Assembly: GCA_902798545.1 (NCBI GenBank)
Contig: CADBWQ010000014.1
Span: 1 to 51,587 of the forward strand
DNA from: Oscillospiraceae bacterium
GTDB lineage: Bacteria; Bacillota; Clostridia; Oscillospirales; Oscillospiraceae
Direction: 5' to 3'
DNA: 51,587 nucleotides
The position numbers were made by a program, and so were the translations under genes. The notes beneath the pieces were generated by a model. That model was not told the DNA's origin, did not search any database, and worked only from the letters and a program-made list of their open reading frames with translations. Each line of letters begins with the position of its first letter. Position 1 is the first letter of the stretch. Positions 45,811 to 47,475 of the stretch are shown here, piece after piece.

Positions 45811-45831
45811 TGTTGGACATTTGTTGGACAT
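45811..45831 (+). repeat. Tandem 11-bp repeat, upstream pair
   Basis: TGTTGGACAT occurs at 45811-45820 and again at 45822-45831, exactly 11 bases apart. It lies about 65 bases upstream of the second repeat pair before the LysM-peptide gene. Confidence 0.7.
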
Positions 45832-45895
45832 CGTGTGTTATAAAAAAGGTGTTAACATAACAAGGTCTCTCCTGACCGATATTTCTTCGGTTCCA

Positions 45896-45916
45896 TGTGA
45901 CAGTTGTGTGACAGTT
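45896..45916 (+). repeat. Tandem 11-bp repeat in the promoter of the LysM peptide
   Basis: TGTGACAGTT occurs at 45896-45905 and 45907-45916, one helical turn apart, where the -35 box should be. ACAGTT repeats are known from AgrA-type (LytTR) sites, but those are spaced further apart, so the factor is open. Confidence 0.65.
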
Positions 45917-45920
45917 CGTG

Positions 45921-45929
45921 TGATATGAT
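45921..45929 (+). promoter_or_regulatory. Extended -10 promoter of the LysM peptide gene
   Basis: TGATATGAT is an extended -10 box (TGn plus TATGAT at 45924-45929). The -35 position (45901-45906, CAGTTG) is poor and lies within the tandem repeats, which suggests an activator-dependent promoter. Confidence 0.5.
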
Positions 45930-46001
45930 GTGCAAGTAAACAAGAGATGGTCACGAAGACAAGTGATCTCTCTTAATAATAACAAAATGGAGGAAATAAA
46001 A

Positions 46002-46247
46002 ATGGCAGAAATTATCAATGACAAAGATCTGGAAGGCGTCTCCGGCGGCTGGCAGTATGCAAACGGCAGCTTCGTGAACTATGGCAACTACATCGTCTAC
46101 ACCGTAGCACCCGGCGATGTCCTGAGCGGCATTGCACAGCGTTTCGGCGTGAACTACATGCAGATCGCCCAGTGGAACAACATCAAGAATCCCGACGTCA
46201 TCAGCATCGGCCAGAAGCTGACCATCTATCCCGCAATTATCCGCTAA
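46002..46247 (+). CDS. LysM peptide with double-glycine leader
   Basis: An 81-residue product. Residues 1-16, MAEIINDKDLEGVSGG, match a double-glycine leader (I at -12, L at -7, V at -4, GG at -2/-1) of the kind removed by C39-peptidase ABC exporters. The mature 65 residues would start WQYANGSF and contain one full LysM domain (YTVAPGDVLSGIAQRFGVNY, ending ISIGQKLTIY), which binds peptidoglycan. GGAGG lies 7-8 bases before the ATG at 46002; the longer frame is promoter. A strong terminator follows, so it is a single-gene transcript. No C39 exporter is in the window. Confidence 0.85.
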   Translation: MAEIINDKDLEGVSGGWQYANGSFVNYGNYIVYTVAPGDVLSGIAQRFGVNYMQIAQWNNIKNPDVISIGQKLTIYPAIIR

Positions 46248-46272
46248 TTGACGTCATCATCTGAACAGATAG

Positions 46273-46302
46273 AAAACCGACCGCTCTTCCGGTCGGTTTT
46301 TT
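46273..46302 (+). terminator. Terminator of the LysM peptide gene
   Basis: CCGACCG (46277-46283) pairs with CGGTCGG (46290-46296), extended by AAAA/TTTT, and is followed by TTTTTT. Confidence 0.88.
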
Positions 46303-46416: not shown

Positions 46417-47475
46417 ATGAGATACCCGGAGTTTATCAAAAATGGCGATCGCATCGGTTTCTGTGCCCCGTCGTTCGGCTGCAACGTTGAGCCTTACCGC
46501 ACGGGGTTTGACCATGCCCAGGAGGTTTTTGCCAGGCAGGGATATCAAACCGTCTGCGGACCGAATGCTTATGCCGGAGACGGCATAGGGATCAGTACCA
46601 GTCCGGACAAGTGCGGAAAAGAGTTCATGGATATGATGCTTGCATCGGATGTGGATGCCATCATCTCCTGCGGTGGCGGGGAACTGATGTGTGAAATCCT
46701 GAAGTATGTGGATTTCACACGCCTTGCAAAGAGCAAGCCGAAATGGTTTATGGGATATTCGGACAATACCAATCTCACTTTTCTGCTGACCACACTCAGC
46801 GACATGGCGGCTATCTACGGCCCCTGTGCGGCTTCTTTCGGGATGGAGCCCTGGCATGAGGCCATCCATGATGCCCTGGCGCTCCTGAACGGGGAGAAGC
46901 TGGAGATGGCAGGCTACAGTGCGTATGAGACCAATCCGGATAAGAACCCCGAGCATCCTCTGGAACCCTATGCCTGCACAGAGCCAAGAAAGATCGTCGC
47001 CTTCGATCCCGTCGGAGGTGTACTGAATAATAACGTGGGGAATACCATCGACTTCTCCGGGAGACTGGTCGGCGGGTGTCTGGACATTCTGGCGATGCTC
47101 TGCGGAACGAAGTATGATCAGGTGAAATCATTTTCCGAGAAGTACAGCGGTGATGGACTTGTATGGTTCCTGGAAGCCTGTGACCTGAGTGTGTTCGGCA
47201 TCCGGCGGGCTCTCTGGCAGCTGAAGAACGCAGGATGGTTCCGAAATGTCAAGGGTTTTCTGATCGGACGGCCCTGGGCCGGGCAGCAGGACATGATGGG
47301 ACTCGATCATATCCGCGCTGTGACGGATGTTCTGGAAGAACTCCAGGTCCCGATCCTTCTGGATGTGGACATCGGACACCTGCCGCCGATGATACCGCTG
47401 ATTTCCGGCAGCATCGCGGATATAAGTTATGATGTCGACGAGGACCGCTTCAAGCTGAAAATGAAGCTTGAATAA
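46417..47475 (+). CDS. S66-family LD-carboxypeptidase (LdcA/MccF type)
   Basis: A 352-residue serine peptidase. GDRIGFCAPSFGC opens the N-terminal domain. WFMGYSDNTNLTFLL holds the nucleophilic serine, WFLEACDLSVFGIRR probably the glutamate and DIGHLPPMIPLISG the histidine of the Ser-Glu-His triad. LD-carboxypeptidases trim the terminal D-Ala from peptidoglycan tetrapeptides; MccF members inactivate microcin C instead. There is no signal peptide, so it acts in the cytoplasm. Start at 46417 with GGAGA upstream. It follows the LysM peptide gene but has its own promoter. Confidence 0.88.
   Translation: MRYPEFIKNGDRIGFCAPSFGCNVEPYRTGFDHAQEVFARQGYQTVCGPNAYAGDGIGISTSPDKCGKEFMDMMLASDVDAIISCGGGELMCEILKYVDFTRLAKSKPKWFMGYSDNTNLTFLLTTLSDMAAIYGPCAASFGMEPWHEAIHDALALLNGEKLEMAGYSAYETNPDKNPEHPLEPYACTEPRKIVAFDPVGGVLNNNVGNTIDFSGRLVGGCLDILAMLCGTKYDQVKSFSEKYSGDGLVWFLEACDLSVFGIRRALWQLKNAGWFRNVKGFLIGRPWAGQQDMMGLDHIRAVTDVLEELQVPILLDVDIGHLPPMIPLISGSIADISYDVDEDRFKLKMKLE

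Follow-up and report, generated by a model that had tools for sequence, protein, structure and literature searches.

A double-glycine leader ahead of a single LysM domain

The window, by which we mean the whole stretch of 51,587 nucleotides analysed here, carries on its forward strand a gene of 81 codons plus a stop (46002–46247) that begins with ATG behind a GGAGG ribosome-binding site (45989–45993, + strand). The first 16 residues of its product, MAEIINDKDLEGVSGG (46002–46049, + strand), form a double-glycine (GG) leader, recognised by its sequence and by conservation in the family, and the predicted mature peptide of 65 residues, WQYANG...AIIR (46050–46244, + strand), starts directly after the GG. 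The initial annotation of this locus had read GG at −2/−1, V at −4, L at −7 and I at −12, and all of these positions were verified in the ORF. They are the positions read by the C39 protease of LahT, which, according to excerpts of the source (PMC6363468), requires suitable residues at −4, −7 and −12 that dock in its groove. Taking GG (or GA/GS) at −2/−1 together with hydrophobic residues at −4, −7 and −12 as the signature of a C39 substrate, the window peptide has such a leader. An ordinary Sec signal, which the initial annotation had named as evidence that would count against it, was not seen: by sequence, the precursor N-terminus has no Sec-type hydrophobic stretch and carries the GG leader instead.

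The 65-residue mature part had also been described as one LysM domain, and this description holds. The domain (46098–46226, + strand; precursor residues 33–75) matches PF01476 with an E-value of 1.3e-17 and 63.9–64.4 bits against the Pfam cut-off of 20.9, and beyond it the 81-aa precursor hits only two plant LysM models in Pfam at E≤1, both below cut-off. The AlphaFold2 model of the precursor, made from an alignment of 22 sequences, has a mean pLDDT of 74.6, with leader residues 1–16 below 50, and predicts a short additional strand at residues 23–26 ahead of the β-α-α-β arrangement of the LysM. LysM domains top the list of solved folds for this model, with none at E≤0.001, and the nearest folds include single secreted LysM proteins such as 6q40.

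Two direct repeats with an 11-bp period were found upstream by pattern search, both on the + strand: box 1, TGTTGGAC-N3-TGTTGGAC (45811–45829), and box 2, TGTGACA-N4-TGTGACA (45896–45913). An extended −10 element, TGaTATGAT (45921–45929, + strand), lies 8 bases past the second TGTGAC of box 2. With up to two mismatches allowed, box 1 appeared in 0 of 100 shuffles of the window, and box 2, which is exact in the window, averaged 0.26 occurrences in the shuffles. Close to the likely transcript start, folding against shuffles revealed a stable stem-loop in the 5′ untranslated leader (45942–45974, + strand); a 68-base stretch folds at −14.9 kcal/mol (z −4.05), with 0 of 200 shuffles as good. An Rfam scan returned two matches, both under the gathering score. 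Behind the gene lies a stem-loop terminator with an 11-pair stem (46273–46302), reported by the scan on the − strand and followed by a T run on the + strand. The span first singled out, 45811–46302, opens at box 1, holds box 2 and closes at this terminator. Judging from the two upstream boxes, the 5′ stem-loop and the terminator, the window gene looks monocistronic.

An S66 LD-carboxypeptidase gene (46417–47472; PF02016, E 4.6e-26) lies immediately downstream of the LysM peptide gene, and the upstream neighbour encodes a membrane protein for which no Pfam model exceeds its cut-off. Among 23 loci searched for these neighbours, some with short flanks, the pair recurs in one near relative only (L011 and L239, which are the same genome). 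A functional tie to either neighbour was set aside, since both stand beside the gene only in that relative.

A family of GG-LysM peptides in the genome and genus

The genome to which the window belongs (G000; 3.03 Mb in 50 contigs, 91.8% complete) is probably that of a gut bacterium of ruminants, and the titles of several related genomes name the abomasum, omasum or rumen. Paralogues of the window gene occur on contigs C17, C3 and C11 (91, 89 and 66% identity), and shorter GG-LysM genes on C28 and C26. Small GG peptides account for six of the seven LysM matches over the Pfam cut-off in this genome, the seventh lying in a 393-residue frame. The mature part is under purifying selection, with dN of 0.020–0.027 and dS of 0.36–0.70 when the window gene is compared with the two nearest paralogues in its genome, and the leader, with only 16 codons, has dN of 0.22–0.39 in the same comparison. 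This combination of low mature dN and high leader dN suggests a cargo that is kept nearly constant behind a leader that changes except at its key positions. The presence of close paralogues elsewhere in the genome, together with a mature dN far under dS, confirms that the observation of a GG-leader LysM peptide is real and beyond chance.

A LysM-peptide match at E≤1e-3 is present in 65 of 101 genomes of the same genus (own included); the genomes compared are related, and counts among them are not independent. A strict GG regular expression recovers 62 of the 75 family rows in the loci, duplicates included, and a GG is visible in 12 of the 13 remaining printed sequences, so that the family keeps the leader with which the peptide was first described; this family count omits 42 of the 61 genome loci (L028, L030–L070), which match over the LysM part. 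Among the odd rows, L029 ends at a contig edge, and L016 and L098 have N-termini that are divergent or truncated. In the 55 distinct family leaders, aligned after parsing on a GG that is thereby presupposed, a hydrophobic residue stands at −7 in 55, at −4 in 54 and at −12 in 52; the exceptions are L016 and L098, with their divergent or contig-edge N-termini, and L004, which has T at −12.

Among 294 other genomes of the order, no small full-length GG-LysM peptide was found at E≤1e-12. Seventeen of these genomes do match at that threshold, each in a larger LysM frame of 216–590 residues, and in a sequence comparison of that sensitivity the family seems limited to this genus. A phage origin was considered and rejected: 113 phage records match, the best place in each below 60% identity, and they resemble other LysM proteins, seven of the eight phage matches listed being annotated as lytic enzymes. 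A plasmid origin was likewise rejected, the six matching plasmid records also resembling other LysM proteins.

An NHLM-type exporter co-occurs with the family

A C39 peptidase was found at one place in the 92%-complete genome, on contig C26; the window gene sits on another contig. The C39-ABC protein scores 929.1 bits on TIGR03796 (cut-off 853.3), a second ABC protein 13 bp away scores 723.9 bits on TIGR03797 (cut-off 709.4), and a HlyD-like partner of 138 aa, placed as expected, scores 30.3 bits on TIGR03794 (cut-off 156.2). With two ABC proteins over their cut-offs and the HlyD-like protein below, the exporter is NHLM-type by its ABC proteins and not a full three-part member. Its C39 domain matches that of LahT (6mpz) at 7e-71 over 139 residues. 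The genes around it form a run with intergenic gaps of at most 16 bp that would constitute an operon: it opens with a STAS protein (1e-13) and the HlyD-like protein, continues through the C39-ABC and the second ABC to an ORF that has no match in Pfam and then to a response regulator and a DUF218 protein, and closes with a GG-LysM gene (LysM 1.2e-11) at a distance of 16 bp from its predecessor. No modification enzyme was found among the eight exporter-cluster proteins scanned in this genome. An RsbW-like ATPase (HATPase_c_2) and a STAS protein head the exporter cluster (L071, on C26, reverse strand, 1193–1669 and 1822–2121) and are possibly a partner-switching pair.

TIGR03796 is over cut-off in 63 of the 101 genus genomes. 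With LysM matches taken at E≤1e-8, 51 of the 101 have both exporter and LysM, 2 LysM only, 12 the exporter only and 36 neither; at E≤1e-3 the corresponding numbers are 57, 8, 6 and 30, both thresholds having been picked after the list was seen. Strong GG-LysM genes without an exporter over cut-off occur in G060 and G094, where the exporter may be missing from incomplete assemblies (93 and 83%). The exporter-bearing genomes without a LysM match at 1e-3 are G039, G045, G052, G079, G091 and G092. A LysM match lies within 12 kb of at least 28 of the 72 exporter genes over cut-off, about 1.7 being expected. The C39 exporter for which the initial annotation had suggested a search is thus present, at one place in the genome, and across the genus it tends to share both genome and neighbourhood with the family.

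Direct-repeat boxes and a candidate regulator

The exact box 1 (TGTTGGACATTTGTTGGAC) was found six times, in 4 of the 101 genomes, and the reversed-pattern control not once. Three of the six sites lie ahead of GG-LysM genes (in G000, G094 and G097) and the other three ahead of the STAS-HlyD genes at the front of the exporter genes (in G000, G015 and G097). Because box 1 is common to exporter and GG-LysM genes, it links the window gene with the exporter by evidence that does not rely on sequence similarity. A looser box-1 pattern combined with a −10 element yielded one site only over the loci examined.

Box 2, sought as TGTGACANNNNTGTGAC with at most one mismatch, occurs at 15 places in the own genome against one for the reversed control; when the downstream starts were read, six of these places precede GG peptides, six precede Sec- or lipoprotein-like products and three look like chance. 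Of 54 distinct family genes, 31 have the looser pattern TGTGAY-N5-TGTGAY in the 300 bp ahead of them, as against 2 of 237 control ORFs (those of at least 150 residues, from exporter loci), and the other 23 family genes lack box 2 over this distance. Combined with the −10 element, at a spacing that is built into the pattern, box 2 is found in 42 of the 101 genomes and its reversed control in 0 of 101. The 81 distinct sites of this combined kind, made up of nine from the own genome, the full sets of G024 (20) and G088 (19) and those in 30 loci, precede GG peptides in 49 cases, Sec-secreted or membrane proteins in 20, other genes in eight and nothing in four. Over whole genomes, GG peptides and Sec/membrane proteins number 10 and 7 of the 20 sites in G024, and 9 and 7 of the 19 in G088. 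As controls for the classifier, 1811 random positions with a gene gave 135 GG and 131 Sec/membrane assignments, and 24 sigma-70-like sites gave four and two; these controls come from 24 loci, mostly fetched for GG-LysM, and the classes are rough regular expressions.

A PepSY protein with a GG leader and a protein that is PepSY-like by eye, with a Sec signal, both stand behind box 2 (C30:3796 and C20:56317; L118 and L116). At two loci of G024 (L214 and L216), GG-leader peptides behind box 2 have C-terminal repeats of PARPLPFPQDRR.

The response regulator of the exporter run combines a receiver domain (4.8e-10) with a C-terminal part resembling OmpR/SARP winged helices. It scores 14.1 on Trans_reg_C (cut-off 26.2), one paralogue lying above the cut-off at 29.9, and the best folds for its model are OmpR/PhoB regulators, at whole-length TM-scores near 0.4. 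Orthologues (E<1e-118) are present in 36 of the 101 genomes, and all 36 also have box 2; box 2 without an orthologue occurs in six (G009, G060, G071, G084, G094 and G096), the regulator without box 2 in none, and neither in 59. On a tree of 31 exporter proteins, the box/regulator label needs six changes, four of them forced by starred branches, so that the label appears roughly clustered and not confined to one clade, in a count that exporter paralogues make rough. The activator of box 2 is likely to be this receiver and OmpR/SARP-like regulator, which would bind the repeats. A WalR-type box was also considered, and the idea was dropped because box 2 is tracked by the candidate regulator in the exporter run. 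A second receiver regulator (C26:29503–30273) lies next to the exporter cluster and adjoins a His_kinase protein (L072:283–1539).

Other cargo with double-glycine leaders

The exporter clusters of 20 genomes, many of which were picked because a LysM hit lay on the same contig, also encode GG peptides with double CW_7 repeats, SH3-like peptides and a family of about 140 residues. In the own genome, Pfam identifies GG cargo with CW_7 (1.7e-27) and PepSY (3.7e-12) domains, and SH3_3 below cut-off. GG peptides of about 140 residues with an 'SGSF' start lie near the exporter (L071, reverse strand, 637–1101), with relatives at L153, L154, L155 and L158, and no confident Pfam match was found for this family.

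Discussion

NHLM exporters, C39 leaders and LysM domains are each already known. The system described here resembles the NHLM (NHLP/Nif11) dual ABC export system defined by TIGR03794, TIGR03796 and TIGR03797 (Haft, Basu and Mitchell, 2010; PMC2887384) in its C39-ABC and second ABC proteins over curated cut-offs, its HlyD-like partner in place, its GG site and its several precursors per genome. It differs in that the aligned leaders here are about 14–24 residues long and not NHase- or Nif11-like, neither TIGR03793 nor TIGR03798 being among the 19 NCBIfam matches of the window peptide at E≤1, and in that no modification enzyme is among the own-genome cluster proteins scanned. The cargo differs as well, consisting here of conserved, folded wall-binding domains, whereas excerpts of PMC2887384 describe NHLP cores as hypervariable and rich in Cys, Ser and Thr. 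A similar comparison applies to LahT, the C39 protease of an AMS/PCAT transporter in Lachnospiraceae C6A11: the C39 domains are alike over the 139 aligned residues and the window leader has suitable residues at −4, −7 and −12, but LahT serves Nif11-type precursors, as far as the excerpted text of PMC6363468 goes, and the precursors here are LysM modules with short leaders.

In leader type and length the peptides resemble class II GG bacteriocins (PF10439, TIGR01847), from which they differ in having a LysM domain as cargo. Three sister peptides match PF10439 weakly (E 0.015–0.14, below cut-off), and the window peptide has no PF10439 match at E≤1 and no TIGR01847 among its 19 NCBIfam matches. 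With PF01476 it shares the family score and the predicted fold, and it differs in being a single LysM with a GG leader, no enzyme and no Sec-type signal. The promoters recall those of SARP/OmpR systems, for which excerpts of PMC10936776 give a rule of 11-bp direct repeats with the 3′ repeat 8 bp from the −10: box 2 has 11-bp repeats and 8 bases between its second TGTGAC and the extended −10, a distance that shifts with the end assigned to the repeat, and the candidate regulator has an OmpR/PhoB-like predicted fold. The repeat sequences differ, however, and the 'small' SARPs in those excerpts are without a receiver. Searches confined to open PMC text turned up no account of these components serving as a co-regulated export route for wall modules that stand free, and the excerpts of PMC3482391, PMC11322243 and PMC9159523 do not describe a GG-LysM system.

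The best explanation of these observations, to which we assign a probability of roughly 0.6, is that an NHLM-type exporter sends out GG-LysM modules that act on the producer's own wall. The 16-residue leader would be read by the C39 domain of the dual exporter on C26, made up of the C39-peptidase ABC, the second ABC and the short HlyD-like protein; the precursor would be cut after the GG, and the 65-residue LysM module moved outside the cell. There, by analogy with known LysM domains, the module may bind GlcNAc-containing peptidoglycan, most likely that of the producer, the own wall being preferred to a foreign one on the basis of regulon content and conservation. It could serve as a non-enzymatic coat, a spacer or a regulator of wall turnover. 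A suite of GG-leader peptides (LysM, CW_7, SH3-like and PepSY) would be expressed together with the exporter and a group of Sec-secreted or membrane proteins, from promoters that carry 11-bp direct repeats, box 2 probably being activated by the regulator of the exporter run.

Of the three functions first proposed for the peptide, namely a bacteriocin, a wall-directed factor or a signal, the wall-directed one is favoured and the bacteriocin is disfavoured. A wall-targeted bacteriocin, an exported LysM peptide that would bind the peptidoglycan of competitors and kill or inhibit them, would fit this combination of GG leader and NHLM-type exporter, a route that excerpts of PMC2887384 describe for RiPP and microcin precursors, and the clusters do hold several types of GG peptide. 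An immunity link is also conceivable given the S66 neighbour, adjacent in one near relative only, whose peptidase family also includes the microcin-immunity protein MccF. We nevertheless consider a bacteriocin improbable, because the cargo is conserved, with a mature dN of 0.020–0.027 below the leader dN of 0.22–0.39 (over 16 codons), the reverse of hypervariable NHLP cores, because the scanned cluster lacks a modification enzyme, and because box 2 also serves genes for Sec and membrane proteins. The conservation pattern, the scanned cluster and the lack of an NHLP/Nif11 leader likewise led us to reject a bacteriocin or RiPP as the leading reading. A signalling role, in which the mature peptides would report on the wall or on cell density and the receiver-domain regulators would respond, appears doubtful: the exporter cluster does hold a receiver regulator and the STAS/RsbW-like pair, with the second receiver regulator beside the His_kinase protein, but this kinase adjoins the paralogous regulator and not the candidate activator of box 2, a folded LysM of 65 residues would be an unusually large pheromone, and the route is common to several unrelated domains.

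Tentatively, and as a special case of export to the producer's own wall, the exported LysM and CW_7 modules might coat the producer's glycans and block lysozyme, phage endolysins and the hydrolases of rivals. The titles of the abomasum, omasum and rumen genomes are in keeping with such a shield, as is 6q40 among the nearest folds, the entry being titled as protecting hyphae against chitinase, although the fold match is generic to LysM, with no hit at E≤0.001. A small cytoplasmic LysM protein whose N-terminus merely resembles a GG leader is very improbable, given that the key leader positions are conserved while others drift, that like leaders stand on CW_7, PepSY and SH3-like peptides, and that co-occurrence, box 1 and clustering all link the family to the exporter.

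The usual interpretation of C39/GG exporters is that they serve bacteriocins or pheromones, and 'bacteriocin export' is the label that NHLM systems receive in annotation. We see an even chance that the NHLM-type exporter here is instead a second, Sec-independent pathway, with dedicated regulators and a promoter code of its own, for a whole class of small, folded proteins of the envelope that carry LysM, CW_7, PepSY, SH3-like or unknown domains. Nearly the whole LysM repertoire of this genome would travel on it, so that the wall would be decorated by free-standing rather than hydrolase-tethered modules. The GG peptides would offer a set of folded substrates on which C39 proteases can be tested directly, and the two direct-repeat boxes would make up a regulatory code that predicts substrates genome by genome. 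If this is true, the label 'bacteriocin export' may mistake the very nature of such systems in gut and rumen Clostridia, and the NHLM-type system would instead secrete small proteins and thereby build or protect the wall.
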